Part shown: positions 26,047 through 47,231 of the stretch, piece after piece
Layout: each line of letters begins with the position of its first letter
Numbering within the stretch: the stretch's first letter is position 1
From: Pseudonocardia lacus
GTDB lineage: Bacteria > Actinomycetota > Actinomycetes > Mycobacteriales > Pseudonocardiaceae
NCBI RefSeq assembly: GCF_018531445.1
Contig: NZ_JAHDTH010000014.1
Location: 1 to 64,000, forward strand
Length of the DNA stretch: 64,000 nt
Direction of reading: 5' to 3'
Notes under the pieces: generated by a model
Told to the model about the DNA's origin: nothing
Seen by the model: the letters and a program-made list of their open reading frames with translations, nothing else
Databases searched by the model: none
Made by a program: the position numbers and the translations under genes

Positions 26047-26121
26047 TGGAGCCGGAGGTCGGGATCGAACCGACGACCTACCGCTTACAAGGCGGTTGCT
26101 CTACCACTGAGCTACACCGGC
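26047..26121 (-). tRNA. tRNA-Thr (anticodon UGU)
   Basis: On the minus strand the gene folds as a full cloverleaf: acceptor GCCGGTG/CTCCGGC, D-stem GCTC/GAGC, anticodon stem ACCGC/GCGGT with loop CTTGTAA (anticodon TGT), T-stem GTCGG/CCGAC with loop TTCGATC, discriminator T and encoded CCA. There is one T-T mismatch at acceptor position 6. Bases 26084-26121 (5' end to anticodon loop) are repeated at 47194-47231, which marks it as the integration target of the island to its right. Confidence 0.9.
26084..26121. repeat. left 38-bp attachment-site repeat (inside tRNA-Thr)
   Basis: This begins at the anticodon loop (CTTACAAGGCGG on the plus strand) and ends exactly at the tRNA 5' end (ACACCGGC). 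It is identical in sequence and orientation to 47194-47231. Bases beyond both ends differ between copies. Confidence 0.85.
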
Positions 26122-30395: not shown

Positions 30396-32203
30396 CAACG
30401 GCGCGGTGGTGGTCGCAGCCGGTCGCGGCCGAGGGCTCCACGGCCTCGAAGGGCATCCGTCGCCAGTTGGGCAGGCCCCAGCTCGACCCGCTCACCGTCC
30501 TGATCCGGGAGACCGCGCAGAACACCTGCGACGCGGCCCTTCCCGGCGGCGGGGACGTCGAGTTCGCGGTGCGCCTGCACCGACTGTCGGGCAACAAGTA
30601 CGCCGCCTGGCGTGACTTCCTGCTGCCAGAGCCGGAAGGTTCCAGCCTGGGCCTCACCGAGGCGATGGCGGCTGCACCGCTGATCATGTCCATCTCCGAC
30701 CGCGGGACGACGGGCCTCGGCGGGCCGCTGCGCGCCGACGAGAACCCGCTCGACGGCGAGCGACCGGACTTCGTCAACTTCATCCGGAACGTCGGCGAGC
30801 CCAAGTCCGTCGACCTCGGGGGCGGCTCCTACGGGTTCGGCAAGGGGATCCTCTACAACGTCAGCCGCTGCCACGTCGTCGTCGCCGACAGCGTCTGCGA
30901 GTTCCGCGGCAGACTGCAACGCCGGCTGATCGGAGCCGCGCTGGGCGACGGCTACAACCACGACGGGCGCCGGTTCACCGGACGGCATTGGCTCGGGGTG
31001 GCCGACGACGGACACACCCGCCCGCTGCTGGACGACGAGGCGACGGCGATGGCCGAACGGCTGGGCATGCCCCGGTTCGCTCCCGGCGCCACCGGTACGA
31101 CGGTCACCGTCGTCGACGTCGACCTCGGACGCCGATGGGGCCAGGACGACACCGCCCGCGAACCCGAGGACGCGGCCGACTACATCGTCTCCACCATGCT
31201 GTGGAACCTGTGGCCGCGGATGCTGCAGGGCCGGACCAACCGGCTCGTCTGCTCGATGCTGCGCGACGGGTTCCGGTCCGACATCCCCGATCCGGAGCGG
31301 CTCGTCGAGCTCCAACCCTTCGTGAAGGCCTACCGCGCGCTGCAGGTGGAGGGGAACTACCAGGTACCCGTCCGCCGGACGCCGCCGACCGAGATCGGTC
31401 GCTTCGCCCTCGTCGAGGGCATGGCTCCGGTGGTGGCCGACCCGCTGCTCGCGGCTGCAGCCCCGTTCACCGGCCGGGCCCACCACTGCGCGCGGATGCG
31501 CCAGGCCGACCTCGTGGTCGACTACCAGGCAGGTGACGCGCCGGGCGACGAGATGATCCAGTTCGGGGCGGTGTTCCGGGCCAGCATGGAGGCCGACACG
31601 TTCTTCGCCGAGGCCGAGCCGCCCACCCACGACGACTGGGTGCTGAGCGGTCTGCGCGGCACGGCTCGTGGCGTGGTCCTGCTGGCCAACGGATTCGTCC
31701 GCGATCGGATGAAGGAGCGGCGCGGCGGCGACGGCCCCCGCCCGGCCGGTGAGACCCCCCTTGCCGCGCTCGCCGGACGTCTCGCCGGCCTGATGACCGG
31801 CGACGGCGACCTGGCCGAGGCGACCACCCGCTCGGGGTCCGCGCCCACGCAGGGCCGCCGCTCCGGGTCCGGCCCGCGGTTCGTGGTCGCCCCGGAGCTC
31901 GTCGACGACGGCGGATCCCCGGTGATCCGCGCCGTGGTCGCCCTGCCGACGTGGCCCACCACCCGCACCGTGACCGTCGAACCGGTCGTCGTGCTGGACA
32001 ACGGCATCGAGCCAGCCGAGGACGGTGCCGGCCGACCGGTCGTCATCGGATGGCGGTCCACCGACTCCGACCGGTCCGTCGCAGGCGCGGAACTCCTGGT
32101 CGACCGGGACACCGACCGCACCTGGGAGGTCCGGGTCCGCGCGCTGCCCGACGCTGTGGTCCGCCTCGGACTGTCCGTCCGCGAGATCGGGGCGCAGCGG
32201 TGA
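30392..32203 (+). CDS. GHKL ATPase, MutL/MORC-like
   Basis: The protein has 603 residues. The Bergerat ATP site is complete: N-box LIRETAQNTCDA (Glu40, Asn44, Asp47), DxGxG-like ISDRGTTGLGG (Asp103), and lid LGGGSYGFGKGILYNVS (143-157). The C-terminal half is beta-rich and ends with a serine/glycine/arginine-rich linker (about 475-495) and a further domain. It fits the bacterial MutL/MORC-type ATPases of restriction systems (Iyer et al.) and the MutL of Mza. Such proteins clamp and loop DNA on ATP binding. The ATG overlaps the nuclease stop by 4 bp. Confidence 0.8.
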   Translation: MTTARWWSQPVAAEGSTASKGIRRQLGRPQLDPLTVLIRETAQNTCDAALPGGGDVEFAVRLHRLSGNKYAAWRDFLLPEPEGSSLGLTEAMAAAPLIMSISDRGTTGLGGPLRADENPLDGERPDFVNFIRNVGEPKSVDLGGGSYGFGKGILYNVSRCHVVVADSVCEFRGRLQRRLIGAALGDGYNHDGRRFTGRHWLGVADDGHTRPLLDDEATAMAERLGMPRFAPGATGTTVTVVDVDLGRRWGQDDTAREPEDAADYIVSTMLWNLWPRMLQGRTNRLVCSMLRDGFRSDIPDPERLVELQPFVKAYRALQVEGNYQVPVRRTPPTEIGRFALVEGMAPVVADPLLAAAAPFTGRAHHCARMRQADLVVDYQAGDAPGDEMIQFGAVFRASMEADTFFAEAEPPTHDDWVLSGLRGTARGVVLLANGFVRDRMKERRGGDGPRPAGETPLAALAGRLAGLMTGDGDLAEATTRSGSAPTQGRRSGSGPRFVVAPELVDDGGSPVIRAVVALPTWPTTRTVTVEPVVVLDNGIEPAEDGAGRPVVIGWRSTDSDRSVAGAELLVDRDTDRTWEVRVRALPDAVVRLGLSVREIGAQR

Positions 32204-33081
32204 AGGACGTCCGGCCGTTCTTCGTCCCGCGGAACGACCTCGTCCGGGTGTCGACGTGGAGCCGCCTGGTCGAGGACGACTGGGAGGACCTCGGGGCCTT
32301 CGTCGAGAACTGGGACTACCGCACCCGGCTTCACCTGCGCTGCCACGTCGCGTGCGACGTCGCCGCAATCCGCACGTCGGCACGGCTCGACGACGGAAGT
32401 CCGATCGGCTGGTCGCTGGGCTGGCGCGCCACCGACACCGGTCTCCTCGGGGATCCCGTCGTGGTGCCGGTGTCGGACGAACCACAGACCGTCGTCCTGG
32501 ACATCCCGGCCGACCGGGCAGGCGCCGGCCTGATGCTGACCCGCCGGATCGTGCTGCGCCGCGACCGCATGTCGGCAACCCCGGGCACAGCCCGATGGGC
32601 CGGGAGCATCCTGTGGTCCGACGAGACACCGCTGCGGCTCACCGGACAGGGCTCGGCGTTCCCCAGCGAGGCGGTGGACTTCCGCGCGTACGGCCTGGAT
32701 CCCGCCGTCAGCTGGTACCTCGAGCTCCCCGCCACCACCGACCTGCCAGCGATGGGATCGATGCTGCTCCTGATCAACTCGGCCGACGCCGCACTCGTCG
32801 CTGCGGTCACCCGGCAGCGACGGCACACGGAGGTCCAGACCGCACTGGTCCAGGCGATGGAGGAGGGGGTGGTCGAGCAGCTCGTCCGGTGGGCACTGGT
32901 CCGGTGGGACCAGTTGGACGATGTCGAGCCCGACTCGATCGGTGCAGCCGCCCGGACCCTCGCCACCCGGGTGCTGCCCGATCCCGACGGCTGGACCGAC
33001 CCCCACGTGGACCAGATGGATCTCACCGCGGCCATCATCGCCGGCGCCCGCCGGATCGGCTGGGGCAGGTCGTTGGCATGA
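32200..33081 (+). CDS. uncharacterised protein of the island operon (beta-rich, 293 aa)
   Basis: I do not recognise the family. The GTG start overlaps the ATPase stop by 4 bp and the stop overlaps the next gene by 4 bp, so it is an integral part of the operon. The first 200 residues are beta-rich (HLRCHVACDVAAIRTSARL, WSLGWRATDTG, PVSDEPQTVVLDIPA), resembling a nucleic-acid or phage-protein-binding domain; the last 90 are helical (VEQLVRWALVRWDQLDDVE). No catalytic motif is seen. It takes the place that AIPR occupies in known Mza loci. Confidence 0.55.
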   Translation: MKDVRPFFVPRNDLVRVSTWSRLVEDDWEDLGAFVENWDYRTRLHLRCHVACDVAAIRTSARLDDGSPIGWSLGWRATDTGLLGDPVVVPVSDEPQTVVLDIPADRAGAGLMLTRRIVLRRDRMSATPGTARWAGSILWSDETPLRLTGQGSAFPSEAVDFRAYGLDPAVSWYLELPATTDLPAMGSMLLLINSADAALVAAVTRQRRHTEVQTALVQAMEEGVVEQLVRWALVRWDQLDDVEPDSIGAAARTLATRVLPDPDGWTDPHVDQMDLTAAIIAGARRIGWGRSLA

Positions 33082-33872
33082 CCCAGCTGTGGCCACGCCT
33101 CGGCCCCGCCGCAGCACGCACGATCTACTTCGGCCTGCGGCGACGCACGATCACCGAACTCGCCGGCGAAGCCCGGCCGACCCACGACCGCGTCACCTAC
33201 GCCGCGACCGGCGGGAGCCGGGTCGCCCCGACCGAGATCGCCGCGCTCACCGACGACCTCCGCCGCGCCGCCACCGAGTTCGGCTACCCGGTACCGGCCG
33301 AGGACGCCGAGCGGATCGCGTTCGACCGGGCTGCCGCTGAGATCCTCTACGCCCGCATGGACCTCACCACCGTCGAGGCCGCCCACAACGGCATCTGGAA
33401 CTTCCTCGCCCTGGTCGCCGCACCTGACCTCGTCCTCTGGCGCTGGACCGGCAGCACGAACGTCGAACGCTGGATCTGCACCGACCGCACCCGCCACATG
33501 TTCGCCCGCCTGTGGTGGCAGGCCCTCACCTTCGACACCCCCACCGGCGACGGCCGCCCCGACCACTCGCTCCTGCGGTCGCTCAGCGAGAGCGACCTCA
33601 ACCAGATCACCGAGCGTCGCTCCATCGCCGGCAACCCCCGCCTCGCCCAGGCCGTCGCCCGGCTCCTCGCCACGGCCCCGGCCGAGACCCGACGTCGCGA
33701 CCTGCTGCGCACCATCACCCCCCGCCTGCGCCGCAGACTCGCGTTCGTCGACTTCTCCGTCCTCACCGACGAACAGCTCGACGACCACCTCCGCGTGCTC
33801 GCCCAGGCACCGGATGACCACGCGACTGTCACGCCGGCGTGGCACCATCCGATCGCACAGACGTTCGAGTAG
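33078..33872 (+). CDS. DUF6339-like protein of the island operon
   Basis: The protein has 264 residues and an ATG inside an ATGA overlap with the previous gene. It has a helical and tryptophan-rich middle (HNGIWNFLALVAAPDLVLWRW, RLWWQAL), then LSESDLNQITERRSIAGNPRLAQAVARLL and an arginine-rich stretch RRRDLLRTITPRLRRRLAF. The pattern is that of DUF6339, a family I associate with methyltransferase-linked defence loci; the assignment is from memory and moderate. No catalytic motif is evident. It ends 6 bp before the methyltransferase gene. Confidence 0.55.
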   Translation: MTQLWPRLGPAAARTIYFGLRRRTITELAGEARPTHDRVTYAATGGSRVAPTEIAALTDDLRRAATEFGYPVPAEDAERIAFDRAAAEILYARMDLTTVEAAHNGIWNFLALVAAPDLVLWRWTGSTNVERWICTDRTRHMFARLWWQALTFDTPTGDGRPDHSLLRSLSESDLNQITERRSIAGNPRLAQAVARLLATAPAETRRRDLLRTITPRLRRRLAFVDFSVLTDEQLDDHLRVLAQAPDDHATVTPAWHHPIAQTFE

Positions 33873-33878
33873 CGTCCG

Positions 33879-35030
33879 ATGGCGGGAACGGCGGGAACGG
33901 CGGGAAGCGAGGACCCGGTGAGCGACGAGGTGCAGCAGCCCGATACGGTCCGGCCGGTGCCGCAGCTCCGCATGATCGATCTCTTCGCCGGCTGCGGTGG
34001 TCTCACCGCCGGCTTCGTGGGCACCGGGTCCTACCGCCCGGTCGCCGCCGTGGAGAACGACTTCGCCGCGGCCGCCACCTACGCCGCCAACTACGGCGAG
34101 GACCACATCCACTGGGGCGACATCGGCAAGTGGGTCACCAGCGGGGACGTCCCCGAGGCCGACATCGTCGTCGGCGGCCCGCCCTGCCAGGGCTTCTCCA
34201 ACCTCGGACACCGCAAGGTCCACGACCCCCGCAACAGCCTTTGGCGCCGCTACCTCGACACCCTGCTCATCAGCCGACCCCGGGCCTTCCTGCTGGAGAA
34301 CGTCGACCGCTTCTACAAGAGCGACCAACTGAAGTCCCTGATCCACGAGACGTTCCGGGACGGGCGGTTGCGGGACTACCGCATCGACGCCCACATCGTG
34401 CGGGCCACCGACCACGACGCCGCACAGCTGCGGAAGCGCACCATCGTGATCGGTACCCACCGCGACCTCCCACAGGTTCTCGTCCCGCGGGATCAACGGC
34501 CGAGCACGGAGTGGACGACGGTCAAGAGCACCATCGCCGACCTGCCCCGCTGGATCGACCCCGACCACCGCGATCTCGCCGACATCACCACCACCGCCTT
34601 CGGCCTCCCCATCGCCGGCACGTTCACCTCGACGGACCTGCACGTGACCCGCCGCTACACCGACCTGTCACTGCAACGGTTCTCCCACATCCCGGTCGGC
34701 GGCAACCGCATGAACCTCCCCGACGAGCTCAAGGCGCGCTGCTGGATCGGCCACGACACCGGATCTCATGATGTGCTGGGGCGCATGCACTGGGACCGAC
34801 CCTCGGTCACCATCCGCACCGAGTTCTTCAAGCCCGAGAAGGGCCGCTACCTGCACCCGGAGGAGAACCGGGCCATCAGCCACCACGAGGCCGCCCGCCT
34901 GCAGGGATTCCCGGACGACTACCGCTGGCGCGGCACCAAACTTGAGATCGCGAAGCAGATCGGCAACGCGGTTCCGGTCCCGCTGGCGCGCTCGCTGGCG
35001 CGGCATCTCCGGGACTCGCTGGAAGAGTGA
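33879..35030 (+). CDS. C5-cytosine DNA methyltransferase
   Basis: The protein has 383 residues and all core motifs in order: I MIDLFAGCGGLTAGF (32-46), IV VVGGPPCQGFSNLG with catalytic Cys103, VI FLLENVDRF, VIII AAQLRKRTIVIG, IX AARLQGFPDDYRW and X QIGNAVPVPLARSLA. It should protect host DNA for the operon, with Vsr repairing deamination damage. DISARM class 2 also uses a C5 methyltransferase (DrmMII), and this gene ends 22 bp from the drmB end, so a shared role is possible. The N-terminus contains a 9-bp tandem repeat (GGCGGGAAC), giving AGTAGTAG; a GTG at 33918 is an alternative start. Confidence 0.9.
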   Translation: MAGTAGTAGSEDPVSDEVQQPDTVRPVPQLRMIDLFAGCGGLTAGFVGTGSYRPVAAVENDFAAAATYAANYGEDHIHWGDIGKWVTSGDVPEADIVVGGPPCQGFSNLGHRKVHDPRNSLWRRYLDTLLISRPRAFLLENVDRFYKSDQLKSLIHETFRDGRLRDYRIDAHIVRATDHDAAQLRKRTIVIGTHRDLPQVLVPRDQRPSTEWTTVKSTIADLPRWIDPDHRDLADITTTAFGLPIAGTFTSTDLHVTRRYTDLSLQRFSHIPVGGNRMNLPDELKARCWIGHDTGSHDVLGRMHWDRPSVTIRTEFFKPEKGRYLHPEENRAISHHEAARLQGFPDDYRWRGTKLEIAKQIGNAVPVPLARSLARHLRDSLEE

Positions 35031-35052: not shown

Positions 35053-36894
35053 TCAGGTCGGGAAGTAGCCGGCGCACGTCCCGTCGGGGGTGCCGACGAG
35101 CATCGCCCGGTCGAGGAACGTGTTGTTCAGCTCGCAACTCGTCTCCGGCAGGAGCACACAGGAGTGGCAGGCCGCCAGGTTGAGGCTGTCGGTGCCGGCG
35201 GCCTCGGACTCCATGCAGAGCGGATCGGCAGAGCACCAGGACGCCCTCGCGATCGCCGATCGCAGCGAGGTCGCGAGCCGGTGCGGCTCGCCCTGGCCGA
35301 CGAGTCCACCCAGGCTGCCGGCCGAGTCGCTGCTCGCCGTGTAGATGAGCACGCCGGCCATGTCGTCGGAGATGTAGAGGCGTTCGCGCAGGGCCGAGGC
35401 CGGATAGCCGGCGTCGAGGCTCCACTCGTTGATCAGCGCATGGGCGAGGGTGTGGACGAGCACGAGACGGGCCCGGACCGGTGAGGGCGGGAGCTGACGG
35501 GCCGTGCCCGCGCGTCGGGCCATGATCGTCTCGTGCTGCCTACGGATCTGCCTGGCACGCCGTTCCGGTGATTCCGGTCGATCGGCGGGCGTCTCCCACC
35601 CTTCCAGAGCCGCCGCGTCGAGCGTCAGGAACACGCCCTCACCGATGACCTCGACCCCGGGGAGCCAGTCGATGCGATCCGTGCTCAGCTCGGCGAGGCG
35701 GGCCCGGTCGTCGCCCTCGACCGGGGCGTCGACCCGGGTGAAGGTCTGCAGGACCCGGACCTCGCGGAGCCGTTTCACCAGCATGGTCTGCCCGATCCCC
35801 GGCGGGAGCGGGGTCGAGGTCGCCCCGGACGGCGGCACGCACTCGAACTCGTCGGTCTCATCGCCGCCCTCGAGCTGACGGTACTCCTCCACGCGGATGA
35901 CGTCGGCAGCCTCGAACCCGGTCAGCACCGAAGGATCCGGGCGCTCGCCCGCCTCGTAGCTCTCGAAATCGCGGACCGCCCGGACCACGTCCGCGGCGGA
36001 GTACTGCACGCCGGCGAGGCCCTGTCGCTCGGCCTGCTCGGCGATCAGCGCGTCGTCCTTGCCCCGCCACATCTTGATGTACCGGCCGACGTTGTCGTAG
36101 AGCTCCCGGGAGAACGGTGGGATCGACAATGCCGACCGGACGACCGGGAACCAGGCCGCGGACGACCCGCGCTGGAGGGTGCGGCACTCGGCGGCGCAAC
36201 CATCCACCCGGCCCGCCTGTCCGAGCCAGGGGCGGCCGCCACGGCAGGTGTACCTGATCGACGCCATCGCTCCGGGGCCGAACGCGCCTTCCATCGACGC
36301 CTCCTTGCCGCAGCTGCAGCCGATGACGATCGATCGCAGGGAGGCGGTCCTGCCGGTTGTGCGGACCGACAGCTCGTGACGGTCCGCGCCATCATCACCG
36401 GGGCGGCCGCTGTGGACCCACTTCCAGTAGGGGAACTCGTCGAGGTGGCCGTTGCGGCAGGCGACGACGAATCGCGACGGGGTCAACGGCCCACCGCAGG
36501 ACGCGCACTGGTTGCCGTTGCGGGGCGAGTTGAAATCCTTGTGCGGTCGGAGGTTGTGCTCGCACTGCCCGGTGCCGTCGACGCCGCGCCCGGGGCACGA
36601 GTAGAAGTCCGGGAACAGGCGGACCCGCACGCCGTCTCCCGCAGGCGGGTCGGAGGCGGGCGGCAGGTAGAAGCCCCGCACACCGAGGCGGGTCTGCAGA
36701 CGGAACTCCCGCAGGTCCGGCTCGCCCCGCACATGCCAGCTGTCGAGGCCGCCCACGATGTACGACCGCTCGCCCAGGGCGATCATCGCCCCGACACCGT
36801 AGGTGGTGATGAGTTGGGTACGACGGACCGACCCCTCGGGTTTCCTGGTCCGCGCCTCGCCGATGGCGCCCCGGCGACGTGTACGAGCGGGCAT
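35053..36894 (-). CDS. drmB: DrmB-like DUF1998 protein
   Basis: The protein has 613 residues. The N-terminus RRTQLITTYGVGAMIAL is the usual DrmB opening. A first cysteine cluster lies at CPGRGV..CEHNLRPH..CASCGGP..VACRNGHLDEFP. The DUF1998 core is LVLVHTLAHALINEWSLDAGYPASALRERLYI, GVLIYTASSDSAGSLGGLV, and the terminal cluster CSADPLC..CHSC..TSCELNN. DrmB partners the DrmA helicase in DISARM, where both are needed to block phage DNA. It follows drmA with a one-base gap. No phospholipase-D gene (drmC) follows; the operon ends here, convergent with the methyltransferase gene. Confidence 0.8.
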   Translation of the reverse strand: MPARTRRRGAIGEARTRKPEGSVRRTQLITTYGVGAMIALGERSYIVGGLDSWHVRGEPDLREFRLQTRLGVRGFYLPPASDPPAGDGVRVRLFPDFYSCPGRGVDGTGQCEHNLRPHKDFNSPRNGNQCASCGGPLTPSRFVVACRNGHLDEFPYWKWVHSGRPGDDGADRHELSVRTTGRTASLRSIVIGCSCGKEASMEGAFGPGAMASIRYTCRGGRPWLGQAGRVDGCAAECRTLQRGSSAAWFPVVRSALSIPPFSRELYDNVGRYIKMWRGKDDALIAEQAERQGLAGVQYSAADVVRAVRDFESYEAGERPDPSVLTGFEAADVIRVEEYRQLEGGDETDEFECVPPSGATSTPLPPGIGQTMLVKRLREVRVLQTFTRVDAPVEGDDRARLAELSTDRIDWLPGVEVIGEGVFLTLDAAALEGWETPADRPESPERRARQIRRQHETIMARRAGTARQLPPSPVRARLVLVHTLAHALINEWSLDAGYPASALRERLYISDDMAGVLIYTASSDSAGSLGGLVGQGEPHRLATSLRSAIARASWCSADPLCMESEAAGTDSLNLAACHSCVLLPETSCELNNTFLDRAMLVGTPDGTCAGYFPT

Positions 36895-36895
36895 C

Positions 36896-39800
36896 TCAGA
36901 TCTCCGGGTAGAGGTGGGACTCGACGTCGACGTCGCGGAGGCTCCACATCGTGTCCTGCGCCTCCTCGAGGTCCTCGTCCTGGGCGAATGCGCGCAGCAA
37001 CGCCGTGGCCGGACCCCGTGGGCCGCCACCGATGACCCGCCGTGGCGCTTCGTAGACCAATGGATTGTCCCGGGCCAGCTCCCGCCAGTCCTCGATGAAC
37101 CAGGTCAGGTCACGCTCCGTACCGGGGCGCTCCTCGGTTTCGACTGCCGCCACCCGGTCCAGGATCACCTGACTCACGACGTACACCTCGTCCAGGAAGT
37201 CCTCCACCCGCGCCGCGGCGTCGTTGGGTCGGGCGATCGGATGCAGGACGCGGAGCAGCCCGACGAGGACGGCATGCAGAGCCCGATCCCGGGCGCGGGC
37301 CGCGAACGGCGTGACGCTGGTCGACTCGACCTGCCGGTACAACGCGGAGTGGTAGGACGCGAAGTCCTCGTAGTGCGACCGGTCCCGGGACCGTGACGAG
37401 TTGAGCATGGTGACCACCAGCCCGGGATCGCGGCGCCCGACCCGACTCGTGGCCTGGATGTACTCCGCGGTGGTCTGCGGTTGGCCCATGACGGCCATCA
37501 GACCGAGCCGTTCGACGTCGACCCCGACCGAGATCATGTTGGTCGCCAGCACCACGTCGATCGTCGACCGGTTCGGGAGCCCGACGAACAGCTCGTTGAG
37601 CTGCTGCGGGATCCTGCTCGACTCGATCCGACTGGTGAGCTCGGCCAGGATGTCCACCGAACGTCCCGATCCGCCCTCCCGCCCGGCCAGCTGGGTCAGC
37701 CGCTCCTGGACGTCGGCGTGAACCTGCAGCTCGGCCGCCGACAGCAGCCGGAGGCTGTTGAAGTAGCCCACCAGCGTCCAGTAGGCGTCGCGGACCACCT
37801 CGTCGCCGTCGATGCGGGCAGCGTGGTGCAGCAGGGCCGCGTACACGCGGATCAACAGGGTCGCCTGGCTCGTGGCCGGCGCGAGCACACCGACATAGCG
37901 CCGGGTGGCCTTGGCGGTGCGCGGCGCCTCCACGGCGAACCAGGAGTCGCGGGCGTCCAGACCGGCCGGCGGGAACTGTTGCACCTCGCGGTCGAACAGC
38001 CGCGCTCCCTGTTCCTGCGCCCGCCGGATCGTGGCCGTCGACGCGATCACTTTCGGTCGCCCCGCGGCGACGTCGATCGCGGTCTCGTACAGGCCCGCGA
38101 GGGTGCCCAGCGGTCCGGAGATCAGGTGCAGCTCGTCCTGGATGACGAGCTCCGGCGGCGGGGTGCCCTCCGGGGCCCCATCGCGGTTGAACAGCGACGC
38201 CACTGTGCCACGCCAGGCGATCTGGGCGAACTTGTCCGCGGTCGCGATGACCAGGGTGGGGCGGACGGCGTAGAGGTCCTCGTCGACGACGTGGACGGGC
38301 AGCCCGGTCCGGAACTCGCACTCGGCGTTGCGGCAGAGGATCGACATCCGCCCGGCCCGGCGGTCGACGTGGTAATCCTGGTGGTCCATCGGGGTGGCGC
38401 ACCAGGGACAGGAGCGCAGCTGCACCGGGTTCTTCTCCTGCACGGGCCGATCCCTGCGCAGTTCCTCCAGGCTCTTGAATGCATCGTCGAGCCGGTTGGG
38501 CGTCGCGGCGGCGCCGACCCACATCCCGATCGAGATCGGTTCCGCCCCCAGTAGTTCGACATTCCCCCGCCGCAGGACGTCCATTGCGCAGATGAGGGTT
38601 GCGGCGCGCTCGAACTGCTGGAGGGTGAGCAGGCGCAGGGTGTACCGCATCAGCACCGTGACGCCTCCACCACGGTCGCCGTGCCGGATCCGCCGCAGGA
38701 AGGTGGTGAATGCGATGAGCCCGAGGTAGGCCTCCGTCTTGCCGCCACCGGTGGGGAACCACAGCAGGTCCGCGACGCCGCGATCAGGGCTGTCGGTGTC
38801 GACGATGCCGTCCAGGCAGAGCAGCACGAACCCGATCTGGAACGGCCGCCAGCGCCCCTTCGAAGGATCGGGCAGGCCCGACCGATCGGCCCGCATCCAC
38901 ATGGTCCTCGCCCGCTGATGGGCCATGGCCTCGCAGGCGAGTCGGAACGCGATGCGGGCACTCTCGTCGCGAGCCAGGAGGTCGATGCCGATACGCATCC
39001 GTCGGGCGGCCCGGGCGCAGGACTCGATCTGGGCCGCGGCGACGGGCCCGAGATCATCTGCCCCCAGCGCGGCCGCGTCCTGCGAACGGTCCGCGATCCA
39101 CTGCTGGTATCCGTCGACCAGGGTCCCGAGGGTGTCCACGAGCTCCTCGGTCGATGCCGTCGCCAGGTCCAGCATGCCCGGCTCGGTGACCTCGGGGTTG
39201 GAGTCCGTCAGGAGGACCTCCCGATCCGGGACGAACGACGACCACACCGACGCCGTTGCAGCACGCGTGGCCGACCGGGCCCCGCGGGGCGCGGGCGGTG
39301 TCCAGTCCCAGTCCGCCGAGCAACCGTGCCCGGTCGCGAACATCGGAGCGTGCCGGTGCAGAAGAGCGCTGAGCTGCAACTCCTTCTCGTCGGCACTCAG
39401 GCCCTGCGGCCGTTCGACCAGCGCGGCCGCCTCGCCCGGCACCTCGATGCGCAGCTCCGGCTGGAAGATGCAGAGCGGGTCCAGCAGTTGCTTCGAGTCG
39501 GCGACGACCTGGTCGTTGACCAGCGTCACCGTCACGGCGGCGACACCGTCCGGGTCGGCAGCGCGAACCCGGATCCTGACCTGCAACCCGACACCCAGAT
39601 CGATCGAGGGTGGCGTGGCTGCCGCACCGACGGAGATCGCGAGCGGATCGACCGTGAAGGGGCGTCTGCGCCACTTCACGGTGTTCTCGTCGTCGGTGCC
39701 TCTGCGTTCTGCTCGTTCAGCCCGGACCGCCGCTCCGCCGGCGTCGATCGGTTCATAGGTTGCGCCGGTGACGCGCAGCGTCACGGTTGTGGTCTGCCGG

Positions 39801-40102
39801 GTGTCCACCGCAAAGGTGATCCCCATGGCCGACGGCATCGAGCGGTTGGCCATGGCCACCCCGGTGTCGGGAACCTCGTCGACAGTGGCGTTCGCCGGGG
39901 TGAGGTCGACGTCCTGCTCGTTCACCCGCTCTCCGGTCGACCCGCGTCCACGGTCGCGCGGATAGAGCACCCCGGTGATGTAGGCGGTCGCCGGTTCCTC
40001 GTCGAGCACCTCGTCCTGGCCGCCGACAGGCCCGAGGAGGTCCCGACGCAGCCGCTCCACCAGTTCGTCCCGGAACAGGTAGTGCGGGCCGAGATCACGC
40101 AT
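36896..40102 (-). CDS. drmA: DrmA-like SF2 helicase
   Basis: The protein has 1068 residues. About 400 residues of DrmA-type N-terminal region, with a beta-rich part (GITFAVDTRQTTTVTLRVTG), precede the helicase core: Walker A LWFPTGGGKTEAYLG near 448-460, TLRLLTLQQFERA, motif II VIQDELHLISGPLG near 656, motif III STATIRRAQEQ, and late motifs TNMISVGVDVERLGLM and EYIQATSRVGRRDPG. This order is that of DISARM DrmA. The ATG overlaps the UvrD stop by 8 bp. It should load on invading DNA with DrmB. Confidence 0.8.
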   Translation of the reverse strand: MRDLGPHYLFRDELVERLRRDLLGPVGGQDEVLDEEPATAYITGVLYPRDRGRGSTGERVNEQDVDLTPANATVDEVPDTGVAMANRSMPSAMGITFAVDTRQTTTVTLRVTGATYEPIDAGGAAVRAERAERRGTDDENTVKWRRRPFTVDPLAISVGAAATPPSIDLGVGLQVRIRVRAADPDGVAAVTVTLVNDQVVADSKQLLDPLCIFQPELRIEVPGEAAALVERPQGLSADEKELQLSALLHRHAPMFATGHGCSADWDWTPPAPRGARSATRAATASVWSSFVPDREVLLTDSNPEVTEPGMLDLATASTEELVDTLGTLVDGYQQWIADRSQDAAALGADDLGPVAAAQIESCARAARRMRIGIDLLARDESARIAFRLACEAMAHQRARTMWMRADRSGLPDPSKGRWRPFQIGFVLLCLDGIVDTDSPDRGVADLLWFPTGGGKTEAYLGLIAFTTFLRRIRHGDRGGGVTVLMRYTLRLLTLQQFERAATLICAMDVLRRGNVELLGAEPISIGMWVGAAATPNRLDDAFKSLEELRRDRPVQEKNPVQLRSCPWCATPMDHQDYHVDRRAGRMSILCRNAECEFRTGLPVHVVDEDLYAVRPTLVIATADKFAQIAWRGTVASLFNRDGAPEGTPPPELVIQDELHLISGPLGTLAGLYETAIDVAAGRPKVIASTATIRRAQEQGARLFDREVQQFPPAGLDARDSWFAVEAPRTAKATRRYVGVLAPATSQATLLIRVYAALLHHAARIDGDEVVRDAYWTLVGYFNSLRLLSAAELQVHADVQERLTQLAGREGGSGRSVDILAELTSRIESSRIPQQLNELFVGLPNRSTIDVVLATNMISVGVDVERLGLMAVMGQPQTTAEYIQATSRVGRRDPGLVVTMLNSSRSRDRSHYEDFASYHSALYRQVESTSVTPFAARARDRALHAVLVGLLRVLHPIARPNDAAARVEDFLDEVYVVSQVILDRVAAVETEERPGTERDLTWFIEDWRELARDNPLVYEAPRRVIGGGPRGPATALLRAFAQDEDLEEAQDTMWSLRDVDVESHLYPEI

Positions 40103-41966
40103 CGTCGCTCTTCCCGTCGTACCGGAACAAGCTGAGTCCGGTCAGCCGCGGTGCCAGCCACATCCCCCGATCACCGATCCCGGCGATCGACCCGGAAGCG
40201 ACGCTCCCGGTCACCGTCTCGATCGCATCGATCCGGACGTCGAAGAGGTATCGGGGGTAGCTCTTGGGCTGATAGACCTTGCGCCCGCCGAGTACGCGGA
40301 ACATCGACCGGCGGAAGGCCTCCGATACCACTCCAATCGGAAGGTCGCGGCGGATGATCAGATACGGTGGACTCATCCCGTCCTCGACAGCCGTCTGCGT
40401 CAGGCGCTCGAGCACGACAGGATCCCCGGGCGCGACCTCGGACATCATCCGTTCCTGCAGTTCCTCGACCCCGGCCCGGAATCCGACGGTTCCGGCCGGG
40501 TCGGTCGGATGGACGTCCTCACCGCCGATCTCCAGACCGAAGCGCTGCCACTTCTGCCGGCCGAATCGCGCGTACCGCCCGGCGCGGCCGTCCCGCCTGA
40601 CATTCCAGGTGCGCAGCGGGTCGGTCCAGCGGAGGTCGTCGCGCGGTCTGGTCATCGCGACGTAGAGGAGCCGGGCTTCCTCGTCCTCGGGCGTGTCCTC
40701 GCCCTCCCTGAGCGGTCCGGGGTCGATGACGACCACCTGGTCGAACTCCAGTCCCTTGGCACGATGGAAGGTCGACACCACCAAGGCACTCGGCGGCTGA
40801 GCGGTGATCTCGTCCGGCAGACGCTTCTCGGCGACGAGCCGTCGCAAACGGTCCATGTCGACCGAACGGCGACCACGGTCCCCTGCCGAGCGGACCAGGA
40901 GCCCCCACACGACGTCCGGATCGTGGTGCCGGGGCAGGGCGAGTGTGTCGGTCAGCGCCTCGTAGGCGGCCCGGGTGAGCACGGTGCCTGTGTGCTGTCG
41001 GAACAACCCTGCGAGCCAGGCAGGTGCGACTCGCTCCTGCACGGTCCGCTGGACACGGTGGGGCACCTCGCCGCCGGCGAGCAGACCCGACGCCAACAGG
41101 GCCTCCCCGTTGGTCCGGCAGAGGATCGCGGTGGTCCCCGGCGTCTCCCGGAGCTCGCGCCGGACGAGGTCGTCGCTCAGCTCACCGAGGTACAACGCTC
41201 CCATCAGGCTGGTCCGCAGGGACTCGTAGCGGCCGCCGCTCCCGGAATGCGCTGCTTCGGCCGATTCCCGCAGCTCCGGGCCGAACGGGAGCGCCGTCCG
41301 GGCCTCGTCCGTCCGCGCCCGGAAGTTCCGGGTGAGTTCGAGCTCGGTGAGCTCGTCGCCGAACCGCGAGCGCAGCCACCGGAAGCAGGCGTCTGCGCCC
41401 CGGGCCCGCTCCTCCGGGTCCTCGATCTGGAATCCGTAGATCGACTGGGCGGCGTCGCCGACCACGGTGAAGTCGCAGTCGCTGTGCTCGATCACCGCCC
41501 GCACCAGCTCCAGCCGCACCCCGACGAGGTCCTGTGCCTCGTCGACGACGAGATGGCGGATGTCAGCGAGGCGTTCGTCCGCAGCGCCGGTCCGGATCCG
41601 GGCGACCGCCGCGGCGATGCGGTCGTCGAACGGTTCCCGGTGCCACTCCCGGTCGCCGTCGAACTCCATGAGCAGGTCCAGCGCCCAGGAGTCGAACGTG
41701 CGCACCGGCACCAGCCGGCCGGCCTGACCGGTCGCCCCGAGCCGCTCACGCAGTTCGCGTACGGCGCTCCGGGCGAAGCTGAGCACCAGCACCTCATGGA
41801 CCCGCAGGTCCTCTTCCGCCAGCAGCCGGGCCACTCGTCGGACCATGGTATGGGTCTTGCCCGCCCCCGCACCCGCGGTGACGACCAGAAAGGTCTCGGC
41901 GGGGAGATCGACGACGGCCTGCTGCTCGTCGGTCAACTCCGCCGAGTGCCCCTGTCCCACCCTCAC
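40095..41966 (-). CDS. UvrD/Rep-type SF1 helicase
   Basis: The protein has 623 residues from a GTG overlapping the stop of the giant gene upstream (GTGA). It is shorter than housekeeping UvrD (about 720). Motifs are LTDEQQAVVD and Walker A VTAGAGAGKTHT (30-40), motif Ia VLSFARSAVRELRERL, II HLVVDEAQDLVG, III VVGDAAQSIYGFQ, V VSTFHRAKGLEFDQVVVID and VI LLYVAMTRPRDDLRWT. The last 170 residues are unlike UvrD. A UvrD partner is not part of described DISARM classes, so this helicase is one reason to regard the operon as new. Confidence 0.8.
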   Translation of the reverse strand: MRVGQGHSAELTDEQQAVVDLPAETFLVVTAGAGAGKTHTMVRRVARLLAEEDLRVHEVLVLSFARSAVRELRERLGATGQAGRLVPVRTFDSWALDLLMEFDGDREWHREPFDDRIAAAVARIRTGAADERLADIRHLVVDEAQDLVGVRLELVRAVIEHSDCDFTVVGDAAQSIYGFQIEDPEERARGADACFRWLRSRFGDELTELELTRNFRARTDEARTALPFGPELRESAEAAHSGSGGRYESLRTSLMGALYLGELSDDLVRRELRETPGTTAILCRTNGEALLASGLLAGGEVPHRVQRTVQERVAPAWLAGLFRQHTGTVLTRAAYEALTDTLALPRHHDPDVVWGLLVRSAGDRGRRSVDMDRLRRLVAEKRLPDEITAQPPSALVVSTFHRAKGLEFDQVVVIDPGPLREGEDTPEDEEARLLYVAMTRPRDDLRWTDPLRTWNVRRDGRAGRYARFGRQKWQRFGLEIGGEDVHPTDPAGTVGFRAGVEELQERMMSEVAPGDPVVLERLTQTAVEDGMSPPYLIIRRDLPIGVVSEAFRRSMFRVLGGRKVYQPKSYPRYLFDVRIDAIETVTGSVASGSIAGIGDRGMWLAPRLTGLSLFRYDGKSDDA

Positions 41967-44900
41967 CCGACACCCCACAGGTGCTCGAACTCCGTGAACG
42001 CCAGGGACTTGCCGTAGTTCTCGACGTTGTCGTGCACGTCGAGGATCAGGCACGTCTCCGAACCGCCGTTGCGCGGCCCGCGCAGCCCGCGCCCGATCAT
42101 CTGCTGGTACACGTTGGGGCTGTAGGTGGGTCGGGCGATCACCACCGCTCGGGTCCTCGGCGCGTCGAACCCCTGGGCGAGGACCCCGTAGTTGGTGATC
42201 ACCCGCGTCCGCAACGACCGGTAGGCCTCGATCTTCCTGCGCCGCTCCGGCATCGGGGTGTAGCTGTCGATCGAGGTCGATCCGATTCCCCGGTCGTTGA
42301 GCATCGCGGTGAGCAGGTTCGAGTGGTTGACCGATGTCGCGAAGACGAGGACGGGCCAATCGTCGGGGAGCTCCGCGATCGCCTCCAGCAGCATCTCGTT
42401 GCGATCCATGTCCCGACCGAGTTCCTCCTCGGCCGAGGAGGGCAGCGTCCCGAAGGTGGTGATGCCCGCCAGCTGAGCGAGGTCGAGGCTGATCGTCGCG
42501 CCGGGGAGCTCCCTGTGCTCCACCTTCGCGAGCACCCCGATCGCCTGCAGGGCCGGGTAGGGGTCGTCGGGGAACAGCCCGTCGTCCAGCCTGCGCCCAC
42601 CGAAACGGTCGACGAGCCGCTGGGTCTCCTGGACGTTGCGCCCGCGGAAAGGGGTGGCTGTGAGGCCCACGAGCGGACGATCGGTCCGCCGACTCGTCAG
42701 TCCGAGCTGCTCGAGGATGGCCGTGTAGCTCCTGGCGATCGCCCGGTGGGCCTCGTCGACGATCACGATCGACGGCTGGCGCAGCCAGGCGTAATCCTCG
42801 TCCTGCAGACGGCTGGTCAGCTTGGCGTCGGTCGCCACGACGAGCTGGGTGGTGTCGAGCACCTGCGCGGCATCGTTGCCGCCCCAGAACCGGTTGATCG
42901 TCAGCCGCTGCTCCGGCCCGACCTTCGACCAGACGAACTTCCAGGCCTCCACGGCCTGCTCGCAGAGCTCGTCCGACTGCGCGATCCACAGGACCGGTCC
43001 CTCGACCCCTCGCTCACGGACCACCCGGATGACGGCCTCCACCGCGACCCGGGTCTTCCCCGCGCCGGTCGGCAGGCGCAGCATTGCCCGCTCGGGCATC
43101 GGTTGGAGCAGCAGATCCACCATCGCGGTCGCGACGTGTTCCTGGTAGTCGTGCAGCGGTGGCAGGTCCGCGGGCCCCTCCACCTCCTCCATCTCGGGAG
43201 GGGTGACGGCAGCCGAGCCCGCCAGGGAGCCGGGAAGGCCGAGCTCTGCGACGTAGCGCCGGGCGGCAGTGCCGCCGGCGAAGGTCCGGGGAGCCTCGAC
43301 GTTCCCGGCCGTGATGTCCTTGCTGTGGTGCCGGAGGATGCCCTCGCCGTGCGTGTTGACCGCCAGCTGCACCACGCGCTCCGGCGAGGGGGCCGATCCC
43401 GTCCTCGCGACCTCGCGCTCCTCCAGGCCGGCCGGCAGACCGGCTCGGAGGGCATCGGTGCCGACCAGCCGGAGGAGCTTCTGCTCGGTCGTCGGGGCCT
43501 CCCGGACCGCCCGGATCCGTTCGGTGTCGCGCTGCCGCTGACGACGGTCGAGAACAGACCTGCACCCGCTCGCTCCGAGATCGAGTCCGAGCACGTCGTC
43601 CACGGCCATGAGCGCTGCGAAGTCGTCCTCGGGTCGCAGCACCAGGACCGAACTCCCGAACCGTGCCCTGGGCAACTGCGTCGTCCGCATGCCGTTGGGC
43701 GTTCGGGTGATCTCCTCCAGTTCGGTGCAGCGGGTCAACGTCCACGTCTCCCCGTCGTGCAGCCGCTGACGGAGATGGGAGCGAACGTGCGGGAAGAGGT
43801 CGACGAGCAGCACCGGCTCGGACTCCGCGACGAACCTGATCTCCTTGGTGATCACTTCCGCCGCGGTGAGCATCCCCCACGCCTCGACCATCCGGTCCGC
43901 CGCCGCGGCGTCGGGGGCGAGAAGGGCCGGGACCCCCTCGCGCACCATCGTCTCGTACTCGGCCAGGACGGCGGTCACCGCGATCGCATGGTCGTTCGTA
44001 TCGGAGGACCACCCGTCGCCGATCCGGCACCGGGTCGTCGCACCGTCGGGCCAATCCGCCCCGGCCTCCAGCAACAGGGCGTATACCTTTCCAGGGAAGG
44101 CGTCGTCAGTGCTTTCGGCCGCGTCGGCCACGATCTCTCGCCAGATCCCCGGCTGCACCTTCGCCAGGGACGAGGGCAGCCGCAGAAATGCAGCGATCGC
44201 CGGAGAAACCTGGGCGACCGGCAGGACGCCGTGATGCTCCCGGAGCGACGGCGCGACGCAATGGGCCACCGGCCGGAGCCCGCGCGAGGTACGGAGGTGC
44301 CCTTCCTTCCACGCCATCCAGAGCAGCGGTGATCGGATCGGCTTGCGGGTGCTCTGTTGACGACCCGCCTGGACGGTCCACTGAGTGGTGAGGCCGTGGG
44401 ACGGGAGGTTCTCGATGAAGGCTGCTCTCCCGACCGGTGAAAGTGCACGGATGAAGCGCAGCGGGCCTGCCGGGCTCGCGCCGTCCACCCGCATCGTCGC
44501 CTGCTGCGGACGGTGTGCCTTGTCGTCCAGCGACCGGAGGTGGAACTCCCAAGCGAACGTCCGGTACTCCTCGAACCAGGGCTCCTCGGTCGGATCCTGC
44601 CCGACGACGGGGCCGTCGAGCAGGCCGAGCCCGGGGAGCACCTCGCGATCGTCGGCGTGGAACTCCAGGTCGACCGCAACGGTCCCGTCACGGCTGCCGT
44701 CAGCCGGCACGACCGGACCGGGAAGCAGGCAGTCACTTGCCGGACGGAACCCGCCCGCGACCGTCCGGACCCGTACATCTCGGCGGACCCCGATCGCCTG
44801 TGCCCGCAAAGCCTCCAGGACAGCACCCGCCCCCGCTGCCCGCCCCAGCTCCCAGAAGGCGATCCACTGATCATCGGTGTAGTCGGCGAAGCCGCGATCG

Positions 44901-46639
44901 ACGACGGCGGCGAACCGGCCCGCGGCATCGGCCTCCCGGACGCCCAGCAGATCGAGCGCTGAGGTGACACCGAAACTGTCGACGACCCGCTCGTCGACGT
45001 AGACCAGGCGATCGGACAGTGAGTCGGTGGTGCTCCGGCGGAAGACCTCACCCCGGACCGGCGCGACGAACCCGCCCGACTCGGTGAGGACCACCCGGGC
45101 CCGCGCCGCCTGCTCGGCCAGGGCGTGACCCGCCTCGACCATTCCGGCAACGATCCGCACGGCTGCCGCGGATCCCTCCGGCTTCCCGTCGGTGACCAGC
45201 GCCTCGAGCCACCGGACGACGGACGTGTCCGACCGGCCGGCGCGACCGAGGATGAGCGCGACCCGGGCCCGCCGCTCCCGCCGCTCGGCGGAGTGGTGCA
45301 CCCACCCGTCGGGACGTCCGGGATGGTCGGCCCATAGCTTCAGCCACTCCTCCCGCAGGTCCTCGGGGTGCAGTTCGATCTGTGCAGGCGATCGGAGCAC
45401 CCCGTCCTGGTCGACGAGGGTCGGCTTCCCGGAGGCGACGCGCCAGATGGCGTCGGTCAGCCGCTCGTCCGCGAACTGGGGCGCCTCGCGACCGCGGCCG
45501 GGGAGGTAGTCGATGTAGCAGGCCGGGTCCTCGGCCGTGGTGAGCTGCGGCAACGACTCGATCACCAACTCGGCGGCGACGCCGATCAGTTCATCGTTGA
45601 AGGCGTTCCCGTCGAAGATGGCCTGGCGGTCCTCCGAGGTCTTCCACGGCGCGTTCAGGATGCCGCGCAGGGTGGTCGCGAACTTGGTCGGGAAGTAGGC
45701 CCAGAACACTCCCCGGGAACCGCTCCGCCCGGGCACCGCCCACGAGATGTCGATCTCCGGGCGATCGTGCAGCTCACCGGCGGCGCTCAACGCGCGGGCG
45801 GACGGCCGATGTCCGCGGGAGAAGACCCGCCACCGGTGGTCGATCGTCGAGTCGTCGGTCCTGACCTCCTGCAGCGTCCGGTGCACCCCGTCGCACCGCT
45901 GGAAGATCTGGCGCTTCCACACCACCCCGCCGCGCCGGTCCTCCAACGTGACCGTTCCGACGTGCGGGGAGAACAGCGGGAACTCCACGGGGAACGACCG
46001 GAGATCCAGCCCCAGCCGGGTAACGCTGCCCGACTTGAGCGGAAGCCGGACGACCGTGGTCGCCCACTGCGACAACTCGTCCAGCACCCGATCCAGATCA
46101 CGTGACCGCCGCGGATCCAGCACCCGGGCCATGCGGAGGACCGGCATCTCGTCCGCGCCGGGGTGGACGCGCCGGATCTCGCCGGCCGACCACTCCCGAT
46201 CGAAGCCGAACCCGAACTGCACACCGTCGACCGTGCTGAAGAACTCCGGCGAGTCCGAGATGGTCAGTACCGACTTCACCCCGACACCGAAACGGCCGAT
46301 CTGCCCGCCGCGCTTCCGCGACACGCTCATCCGCAGGATGGTGTCGGCGCCCTCGGGAGTGACCGGGCTGCCCTCGTTTGCGCAGTAGAGGTGGGTCGGG
46401 GTCAGGACGACCGCGATCTCGCCACCCGGCGTCGCCCGGATCTCGTCGGCCGCGTTCTGCACGAGCTCGAAGACCTGTCGGTCGCCGTAGCCGCCTTGCG
46501 AGATCCGCCTCTCGCCGTTCGCGTGCTCCTCGATGAGGCCGGGATCGGCCCGGTAGACGTCCAGCGCCCGGCGCGACCGGTCACGGATGACATCGAGCAC
46601 GCTCAGGCACCCCGGCACGGGGCCGACCCCAGTCGTCAC
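41963..46639 (-). CDS. sacsin-type GHKL ATPase fused to an SF2 helicase (about 1560 aa)
   Basis: This is the first and largest gene of the leftward operon. Near the N-terminus lies a sacsin-like Bergerat site: ISQGGYGDRQVFELVQNAADE (N-box), then CANEGSPVTPEGADTILRMSVSRKRGGQIGRFGVGVKSVL. A middle of about 900 residues has no domain I recognise. The C-terminal 400 residues are an SF2 helicase: MLRLPTGAGKTRVAVEA near 1190, VIVDEAHRAIARSY, GLTATPFRG, ITNYGVLAQGFDAPRTRAVVIARPT, and QQMIGRGLRGPRNGG. Start is uncertain: GTGs at 46681, 46639, 46618 and 46600 are possible. It overlaps the UvrD gene by 4 bp. Confidence 0.75.
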   Translation of the reverse strand: MTTGVGPVPGCLSVLDVIRDRSRRALDVYRADPGLIEEHANGERRISQGGYGDRQVFELVQNAADEIRATPGGEIAVVLTPTHLYCANEGSPVTPEGADTILRMSVSRKRGGQIGRFGVGVKSVLTISDSPEFFSTVDGVQFGFGFDREWSAGEIRRVHPGADEMPVLRMARVLDPRRSRDLDRVLDELSQWATTVVRLPLKSGSVTRLGLDLRSFPVEFPLFSPHVGTVTLEDRRGGVVWKRQIFQRCDGVHRTLQEVRTDDSTIDHRWRVFSRGHRPSARALSAAGELHDRPEIDISWAVPGRSGSRGVFWAYFPTKFATTLRGILNAPWKTSEDRQAIFDGNAFNDELIGVAAELVIESLPQLTTAEDPACYIDYLPGRGREAPQFADERLTDAIWRVASGKPTLVDQDGVLRSPAQIELHPEDLREEWLKLWADHPGRPDGWVHHSAERRERRARVALILGRAGRSDTSVVRWLEALVTDGKPEGSAAAVRIVAGMVEAGHALAEQAARARVVLTESGGFVAPVRGEVFRRSTTDSLSDRLVYVDERVVDSFGVTSALDLLGVREADAAGRFAAVVDRGFADYTDDQWIAFWELGRAAGAGAVLEALRAQAIGVRRDVRVRTVAGGFRPASDCLLPGPVVPADGSRDGTVAVDLEFHADDREVLPGLGLLDGPVVGQDPTEEPWFEEYRTFAWEFHLRSLDDKAHRPQQATMRVDGASPAGPLRFIRALSPVGRAAFIENLPSHGLTTQWTVQAGRQQSTRKPIRSPLLWMAWKEGHLRTSRGLRPVAHCVAPSLREHHGVLPVAQVSPAIAAFLRLPSSLAKVQPGIWREIVADAAESTDDAFPGKVYALLLEAGADWPDGATTRCRIGDGWSSDTNDHAIAVTAVLAEYETMVREGVPALLAPDAAAADRMVEAWGMLTAAEVITKEIRFVAESEPVLLVDLFPHVRSHLRQRLHDGETWTLTRCTELEEITRTPNGMRTTQLPRARFGSSVLVLRPEDDFAALMAVDDVLGLDLGASGCRSVLDRRQRQRDTERIRAVREAPTTEQKLLRLVGTDALRAGLPAGLEEREVARTGSAPSPERVVQLAVNTHGEGILRHHSKDITAGNVEAPRTFAGGTAARRYVAELGLPGSLAGSAAVTPPEMEEVEGPADLPPLHDYQEHVATAMVDLLLQPMPERAMLRLPTGAGKTRVAVEAVIRVVRERGVEGPVLWIAQSDELCEQAVEAWKFVWSKVGPEQRLTINRFWGGNDAAQVLDTTQLVVATDAKLTSRLQDEDYAWLRQPSIVIVDEAHRAIARSYTAILEQLGLTSRRTDRPLVGLTATPFRGRNVQETQRLVDRFGGRRLDDGLFPDDPYPALQAIGVLAKVEHRELPGATISLDLAQLAGITTFGTLPSSAEEELGRDMDRNEMLLEAIAELPDDWPVLVFATSVNHSNLLTAMLNDRGIGSTSIDSYTPMPERRRKIEAYRSLRTRVITNYGVLAQGFDAPRTRAVVIARPTYSPNVYQQMIGRGLRGPRNGGSETCLILDVHDNVENYGKSLAFTEFEHLWGVG

Positions 46640-47193: not shown

Positions 47194-47231
47194 CTTACAA
47201 GGCGGTTGCTCTACCACTGAGCTACACCGGC
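47194..47231. repeat. right 38-bp attachment-site repeat (tRNA-Thr 5' fragment)
   Basis: The copy is identical to 26084-26121 and consists of the tRNA-Thr 5' end through the anticodon loop on the minus strand. The 3' half is absent, so it cannot make a tRNA. On the minus strand a TACGAT hexamer lies nine bases before its 5' end, perhaps the original tRNA promoter. Confidence 0.85.

Follow-up and report, generated by a model that had tools for sequence, protein, structure and literature searches.

The window, the whole 64,000-nucleotide stretch of Pseudonocardia lacus DNA analyzed here, contains a four-gene operon in which genes resembling drmA and drmB, the core pair of the DISARM defense system, are joined to two further helicase genes. 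The question raised by this locus is whether the operon represents a form of DISARM outside the described classes and, if so, how such a form might act. It was originally predicted to be a DISARM-like operon lacking drmC, drmD/E and a methyltransferase of its own, and possibly a third class of DISARM.

Gene Organization of the SacH-DrmAB Operon

The four genes are located on the minus strand and run from 46.6 to 35.05 kb in the order SacH, UvrD-type helicase, DrmA, and DrmB, where SacH is a label coined here for a protein that combines a sacsin-type GHKL ATPase with an SF2 helicase. Their coordinates and best matches are as follows.

35053..36894, minus strand: DrmB (MZB/DUF1998); NCBIfam NF038324, 449 bits (cut-off 240); PDB 7s9v_B, 3.2e-74
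36896..40102, minus strand: DrmA, SF2 helicase, short form; NF038325, 980.7 bits (cut-off 950); 7s9v_A, 2.6e-281 (family profile)
40095..41966, minus strand: UvrD-type SF1 helicase with an extra C-terminal domain; Pfam; model pLDDT 89.5; UvrD fold, Z 32
41963..46639, minus strand: SacH, sacsin-type GHKL ATPase, middle part, and ResIII/RadD-like SF2 helicase; P_loop_sacsin, 64.3 bits (cut-off 50); ResIII, 3.4e-21; sacsin structures

Translation of SacH may begin at a GTG codon at 46639 or 46618, and the gene extends to 41963. The UvrD-type helicase gene ends at 40095, and comparison with relatives placed its start at a GTG at 41966 or 41960, the former resulting in a 4-bp GTGA overlap with SacH; a 964-aa open reading frame for this gene was rejected as over-long, the gene encoding about 621–623 aa. 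An 8-bp overlap follows between the helicase gene and drmA, and a one-base gap between drmA and drmB, so that the predicted joining of the four genes by 4- to 8-bp overlaps or a one-base gap was borne out by the coordinates. Across 80 loci from the GTDB scan described below, the median gap at all three junctions was −4 bp (n = 79, 78, and 78). From the co-orientation, overlaps, and conservation of the genes, we infer that the four products may act as one machine.

Both core proteins scored above their NCBIfam cut-offs and matched the DrmAB structures of Serratia DISARM, confirming the DISARM core pair on the profile check; DrmA qualifies as a DISARM DrmA helicase and DrmB as a separate gene adjoining it. 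The PTGGGKT and DELH motifs of DrmA were invariant in 16 aligned sequences, and the C-x2-C-x6-9-C motif was present in the window's DrmB and in 105/105 DrmB proteins longer than 500 aa. According to our reading of the alignment with Serratia DrmA, the window's protein lacks about 130 N-terminal residues of the latter and has about 40 residues at the position of its trigger loop (176–232).

The SacH head was matched by sacsin crystal structures (best 8.5e-08) and by the NCBIfam P_loop_sacsin profile, and its C-terminal part was recognized as a ResIII/RadD-like SF2 helicase by both Pfam and NCBIfam. Residues E51, N55, and D58, the GRFGxGxKS motif, the helicase AGKT motif, and the DExH residues were invariant in 16 sequences. 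The middle of SacH (residues 381–1165, 785 residues) was modeled with a mean pLDDT of 88.7 and a pTM of 0.65; a Foldseek search of the PDB with this model gave no match better than E 0.3, which in itself establishes no new fold. Residues 28–394 also matched the PADLOC profile TmtA (1.6e-40), which we take to be the single-gene system Tiamat, but this match is confined to the N-terminal part, and SacH differs in having the ResIII/RadD-like helicase and in belonging to a DrmAB operon. In the UvrD-type helicase, DExQD was invariant and GxGKT nearly so (29 sequences). Its model aligned to UvrD structures over residues 6–466 (4c2t, Z 32.2, rmsd 6.0, 403 residues aligned); the structural matches shown end by residue 467, and about 150 C-terminal residues lie beyond them. 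Although the best PADLOC matches of this protein were GajB profiles of the Gabija system (7.5e-30), no GajA was found among the matches listed in the island, and the fold is closest to UvrD/PcrA/Rep rather than to GajB.

The Operon Lies in a tRNA-Bounded Island with a Convergent Methylase Operon

The region beyond the DrmB end of the operon, up to and including a tRNA gene, and the distal repeat contain the following features.

26047..26121, minus strand: tRNA-Thr (TGT), island insertion site; ARAGORN; empty site in relatives
26084..26121, no strand: 38-bp direct repeat, copy 1 (5' part of the tRNA); exact match
26348..26734, plus strand: Vsr very-short-patch-repair endonuclease; Pfam Vsr, 2.5e-14
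26809..29403, plus strand: Z1-domain helicase (MzaC-like) with a DTLLQMARWFG motif; Pfam Z1, 8.5e-67; MzaC, 399 bits (below cut-off 1500)
29400..30395, plus strand: DUF4420 PD-(D/E)XK protein (MzaD-like); Pfam, 7.8e-38; MzaD, 69 bits (below cut-off 420)
30392..32203, plus strand: GHKL ATPase, weakly PDC-M33A-like; PADLOC, 8e-06; alignment
32200..33081, plus strand: M33B (label coined here), middle gene of the GHKL trio, no known domain; profile scans
33078..33872, plus strand: DUF6339 protein, PDC-M33C-like; Pfam, 7.5e-10; PADLOC, 3.4e-05
33918..35030, plus strand: cytosine-5 DNA methyltransferase; Pfam, 5.8e-57; NCBIfam dcm, 166 bits (cut-off 100.65)
47194..47231, no strand: 38-bp direct repeat, copy 2, adjoining the ThrE exporter gene; exact match; ThrE by Pfam

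The two repeat copies enclose 21 kb with exactly 11 genes, as called by the gene caller, comprising both convergent operons; no integrase match was obtained for any of the 11. Among 22 ThrE loci scanned in relatives, 15 contained an intact tRNA-Thr(TGT), which in three of them was located 99–106 bp before the ThrE match, and the exact 38-mer was present in four. The other 7/22 had no tRNA in the locus, with tRNA-Thr found further upstream in three of the seven. Because tRNA-Thr lies next to ThrE in relatives, as in an empty site, the island is an insertion. Within the genus, SacH is patchy, being found in 2/60 genomes, the window's own among them. The closest relative by ThrE (G311, locus L211) was rejected as an empty site, as it carries a decayed repeat copy and different genes upstream; judging from this genome, insertions may have occurred repeatedly at the ThrE/tRNA-Thr site.

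The claim that the operon has no methyltransferase of its own did not hold at the level of the locus. The stop codon of a cytosine-5 (C5) methylase gene is located 22 bp from that of drmB, within the same tRNA-bounded insertion, and such a gene is present in 75/80 GTDB loci. In PADLOC, the methylase matched the DrmMII profile (6.3e-42), but the DruM and MTase_II profiles scored better. The motifs of the window's GHKL ATPase are presumably of the MutL/MORC type.

Search for DISARM Components and a Nuclease

According to the portion of PMC9252829 available, the DISARM classes require DrmC together with either DrmD and DrmMI or DrmE and DrmMII; the window's set fits neither definition. It has in common with classes 1 and 2 the separate DrmA and DrmB genes and, as in class 2, a nearby C5 methylase, whereas no DrmC, DrmD, DrmE, or DrmMI-type methylase was found, and the SF1 helicase and SacH genes are placed directly upstream of drmA. 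DrmC was not among the PADLOC and NCBIfam matches listed for 10 of the 11 island proteins (the best 25 of 47 for the UvrD-type helicase and the best 25 of 61 for the methylase), while Vsr was scanned with Pfam only. The HxKx4D motif was absent from all 11 island proteins, the four operon products included, in accordance with the predicted lack of a paired motif in the latter; it was present in 6/6 proteins labeled by the DrmC HMM, one of which is a DrmD/DrmC remnant (L095). Neither the DrmD SNF2 helicase nor the DrmMI methylase was among the PADLOC and NCBIfam matches listed for the island proteins, and the DrmE profile NF038316 matched nothing in the window's whole genome, a result on which the UvrD-type helicase was also rejected as a DrmE homologue. 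The predicted absence of drmC and drmD/E thus agreed with these searches. Likewise, no BrxHII or PglX homologue was among the matches listed for the island proteins with general Pfam/PADLOC profiles.

A DrmC or another nuclease hidden in one of the four proteins was not revealed by Pfam, PADLOC, NCBIfam, the HxKx4D motif, or the models of the UvrD-type helicase and SacH residues 381–1165; despite these results, a nuclease may lie inside the middle of SacH or the C-terminus of the UvrD-type helicase. The absence of DrmC by itself is not new, as the accessible passages of PMC9142583 report DrmC to be dispensable and often missing, with host phospholipase D (PLD) proteins proposed as substitutes. 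In the order sample, a gene matching the DrmC profile adjoined drmB in five of six loci with a DrmC-clade DrmA (L086–L091, the exception being L087), and NCBIfam confirmed DrmC in the two of these loci checked. In Pseudonocardia sp. CNS-004, one open reading frame upstream of the SacH operon (L095:5176-6231) is matched by DrmD at its beginning and by DrmC at its final part; apparently, a deletion collapsed a class-1 DISARM and left this remnant.

Conservation of the Operon

We searched an order-level sample of 298 genomes for SacH at a threshold of 1e-30. Matches were obtained in 20/298 genomes, in 4 of them to the helicase part only, and the other 16 hold 17 full-length or near-full-length SacH places, two of which were pieced together from two matches. 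The SF1 helicase, DrmA, and DrmB follow SacH in 16/17 of these places; the exception (G067) carries DrmA, DrmB, and UvrD on the SacH contig, but at a distance of about 29 kb. In the 16 operons, the second slot is occupied by a UvrD-type helicase in 7 and by a NERD/SF1 fusion in 9 (Pfam NERD was checked in four of the nine, and the rest were called by a family HMM). When the genomes of 84,980 species in GTDB were scanned, 388 stretches were found to encode a SacH relative. Of the best 80 of these 388, which were examined, 78 showed the four-gene order (77 by the gene-call script and one with UvrD located by tblastn), and the other two run off contig ends; these 80 loci are not independent, since their titles are actinobacterial, mostly Streptomyces. 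A Rhodococcus locus that appeared to hold SacH without UvrD (L163) proved to be a gene-caller miss, tblastn finding the UvrD gene. These counts answer how often UvrD and sacsin-helicase genes are direct neighbors of DrmAB, and confirm the two extra motors as parts of a conserved operon. Among viral contigs, one SacH relative was found, on a contig that ends after SacH.

The linkage was also counted from the DrmA side. In 296 order genomes, 27 close DrmA places were found (E below 1e-120); 16 were SacH operons, and 25/27 had an SF1-helicase family match beside DrmA or DrmB. UvrD-DrmA-DrmB also occurs on Tsukamurella, Rhizobium, and Azospirillum plasmids, in stretches where no SacH-like gene is annotated; in those of Rhizobium and Azospirillum, a NERD protein follows. 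The DrmA-side count and the plasmid loci indicate that DrmAB is accompanied more constantly by the SF1 helicase than by SacH, which is a frequent partner in actinobacteria.

Linkage between the SacH-DrmAB and Methylase/GHKL Operons

Across the 80 GTDB loci, a C5 methylase was present in 75, at least two in 72, Vsr in 59, Z1 in 16, and DUF4420 in one. The GHKL/M33B/DUF6339 trio was present in 75/80, upstream of SacH and on the opposite strand in all 75. In the order sample, 13/16 SacH operons had a C5 methylase or GHKL gene within the stretch of about 20 kb (12 by gene calls, and L035 by a tblastn match to the methylase with 25% identity and 7e-14), and three (L030, L033, and L039) had neither in that stretch. 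GHKL and SacH genes co-occur in 7 genomes, compared with 1.1 expected (GHKL 20/296, SacH 16/298; Fisher p 1.7e-5, and 1.1e-4 with the window genome left out). An N-terminal extension, identified as an HTH in the one protein examined with Pfam, was observed in 5/7 aligned GHKL proteins but not in those of the window and L041.

Such linkage bears on whether the island is one system or two. Eight stretches were fetched from the 20 GHKL places in the order sample. Three of them (L240, L241, and L246) hold Z1-DUF4420-GHKL-M33B-M33C with a C5 methylase and Vsr; a further one (L242) holds Z1-DUF4420 and the GHKL trio without a labeled methylase, and L239 and L244 are variations, all of them without SacH or DrmAB. 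In the accessible text of PMC2292703, MORC/paraMORC restriction-modification (RM) operons are described that, like the window, combine a GHKL ATPase, a Z1-type helicase with the motif DThhQxuRhFG, a PD-(D/E)XK protein, a C5 methylase, and Vsr. This motif occurs in the window's Z1 protein as DTLLQMARWFG (residue 526), and with the restriction-fold partner, C5 methylase, and Vsr, the set agrees with the third type of operon in that text; it differs from the MORC RM operons and from MZA in being joined to a DISARM-type operon within one insertion, and both Mza matches fell far short of the equivalog cut-offs listed above. It is quite possible, although we think it on balance unlikely, that two separate defense systems share one island, with SacH-UvrD-DrmA-DrmB being self-sufficient and Vsr-Z1-DUF4420-GHKL-M33B-M33C-C5 methylase traveling as a complete MORC-type RM system. 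The free-standing methylase/GHKL sets, the published operons with their shared helicase motif, the three SacH operons with neither gene nearby, and the convergent orientation in the window favor this explanation. It is opposed by the fixed position of the trio opposite SacH, the presence of the C5 methylase in most GTDB loci, the non-random sharing of genomes, and locus L239, where C5 methylases and the GHKL trio are accompanied by Z1-DUF4420 in the place that SacH-UvrD-DrmAB occupies in its relatives. The latter arrangement suggests exchangeable effector arms. As the trio is linked to SacH yet also found without it, either one core with two arms or two systems in one island would fit.

Phylogeny of DrmA

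The DrmA tree comprised 60 rows, with 20 of the 80 GTDB loci entered, and was built as a "quick" tree with SH-aLRT support only; four long-branched or odd rows (L084, L092, L093, and L094) were dropped after the first tree, and L179 and L180 before the AU test (58 rows). True class-2 rows are nearly absent: the Lactiplantibacillus L179 was rejected as a class-2 comparator because it has no DrmE match, and the Priestia L180 has one below the cut-off only, so that class 2 is poorly represented.

The 29 UvrD-type DrmA rows formed one clade (support about 99–99.9), consisting of 26 rows with SacH and UvrD, one with SacH in which UvrD was missed by the gene caller, and two without adjoining SacH. 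The nine SacH-NERD rows formed a second clade (99), and the eight DrmC/class-1-type rows a third (100). A single clade of all SacH-linked DrmA rows (with L175 and L085) was rejected by the AU test (p 4e-40), rejecting a single origin of SacH-DrmAB under the model, with gain not separable from loss. The suggestion of a third class is accordingly fair for the UvrD-type DrmA clade, but does not extend to SacH, which is tied to two DrmA lineages rather than one clade and is a less constant partner than the SF1 helicase.

The tree also weighs against an ordinary DISARM that lost DrmC and relies on a host-supplied PLD nuclease, with SacH and UvrD as accessories. The reported dispensability of DrmC (PMC9142583, passages cited above) and the closeness of the core pair to Serratia DrmAB would allow for it, but we consider it improbable, because the operon's DrmA belongs to its own clade (99.9) apart from the DrmC-linked one (100), DrmD, DrmE, and a DrmMI-like methylase were also not found, and almost all SacH loci observed have both SacH and an SF1 helicase linked to DrmAB.

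Comparison with ARMADA and Proposed Function

ARMADA type II, as presented in the available sections of PMC12458937, also has four genes, three helicases, a YprA-family motor, and a GajB/UvrD-like helicase. In the window, however, the YprA and DUF1998 parts are split rather than on a single chain, a sacsin-GHKL protein is present instead, neither of the ARMADA-related proteins BrxHII and PglX was among the matches listed, and Vsr is a separate gene. In these sections, the survey defines ARMADA, BRIGADE, and TALON, and contains neither an account of the window's set nor the word "sacsin". Among the matches listed from the open-licence PMC literature, supplements aside, no description of the gene set was found, and we file the operon as a putative undescribed DISARM variant.

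On balance, we consider it probable that the region is a mobile anti-phage or anti-element island of the DISARM superfamily acting by the mechanism proposed below; that is, a soil bacterium's mobile predicted defense cluster, recurring in many actinobacteria, which probably defends the cell. Gene content, intact ATPase and helicase motifs, conservation, phylogenetic separation, and the location in one tRNA-bounded insertion are the observed basis of this reading. A DNA-repair or genome-maintenance operon, for which the UvrD-like and RadD-like helicase parts and the repair roles of YprA relatives (PMC12458937, same sections) might speak, appears very improbable in view of the patchiness within the genus (2/60), the tRNA-bounded insertion, the linkage to methylases and restriction-type genes, and the placement of DrmA within the DISARM family.

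In the proposed mechanism of the defense island, the C5 methylase would mark host DNA, and Vsr would repair mismatches arising from deamination of methylcytosine. DrmA-DrmB would load on DNA that is unmethylated and has single-stranded ends or gaps, a mode of loading reported for DrmAB of Serratia, and its translocation would block replication and transcription; a block of phage DNA by DrmAB translocation is proposed in the passages of PMC9142583 at hand. The UvrD-type helicase might unwind or strip the substrate, and SacH could serve as an ATP-gated clamp, with its sacsin/Hsp90-type GHKL head on an SF2 motor, coupling recognition to the other motors. As the search of the four proteins yielded no nuclease, a partner would have to carry out any destruction of DNA. 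In the window, the simplest candidates are Vsr and the DUF4420 PD-(D/E)XK protein; in the sister type, the candidate is the NERD domain of the fusion that takes the place of UvrD, and otherwise host nucleases might act. Beyond gene content, this mechanism draws on the DrmAB work (PMC9142583, in part), the NERD fusion, and what is generally known about UvrD, Vsr, and GHKL proteins.

As a more speculative and rather doubtful extension, the island may be a modular defense with one core (C5 methylases, Vsr, GHKL, M33B, and M33C) and two exchangeable arms, either Z1 with the PD-(D/E)XK protein or a nuclease-free SacH, SF1 helicase, and DrmAB set; the window and L041 hold both on one core, and the DrmAB arm would constitute a third class of DISARM, in which the motors by themselves halt phage DNA. 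More generally, the operon as a DISARM variant would broaden the concept of DISARM, so far "methylase + DrmAB + PLD nuclease", into a platform of motors with an optional and swappable nuclease. SacH relatives are common, as the 388 stretches indicate. How DrmC-less DISARM destroys DNA, a puzzle in the accessible text of PMC9142583, could be tested in the natural pairs of UvrD and NERD types.

Other Gene Clusters near DrmAB and SacH

Downstream of DrmB in L095–L174, a HATPase-like gene occurs in 31/80 loci and an HTH gene in 30/80, with mean identities of 57–60%, which may point to a fixed location in the Streptomyces chromosome. Another type of DrmAB operon (L079–L083) encodes a protein of about 505 aa, with no NCBIfam match in the one checked (L080), followed by a NERD/SF1 helicase, DrmA (about 1160 aa), and DrmB. 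Finally, a protein of about 2,130 aa and a UvrD-type helicase of about 738 aa form another cluster near SacH-like genes in L028 and L044.
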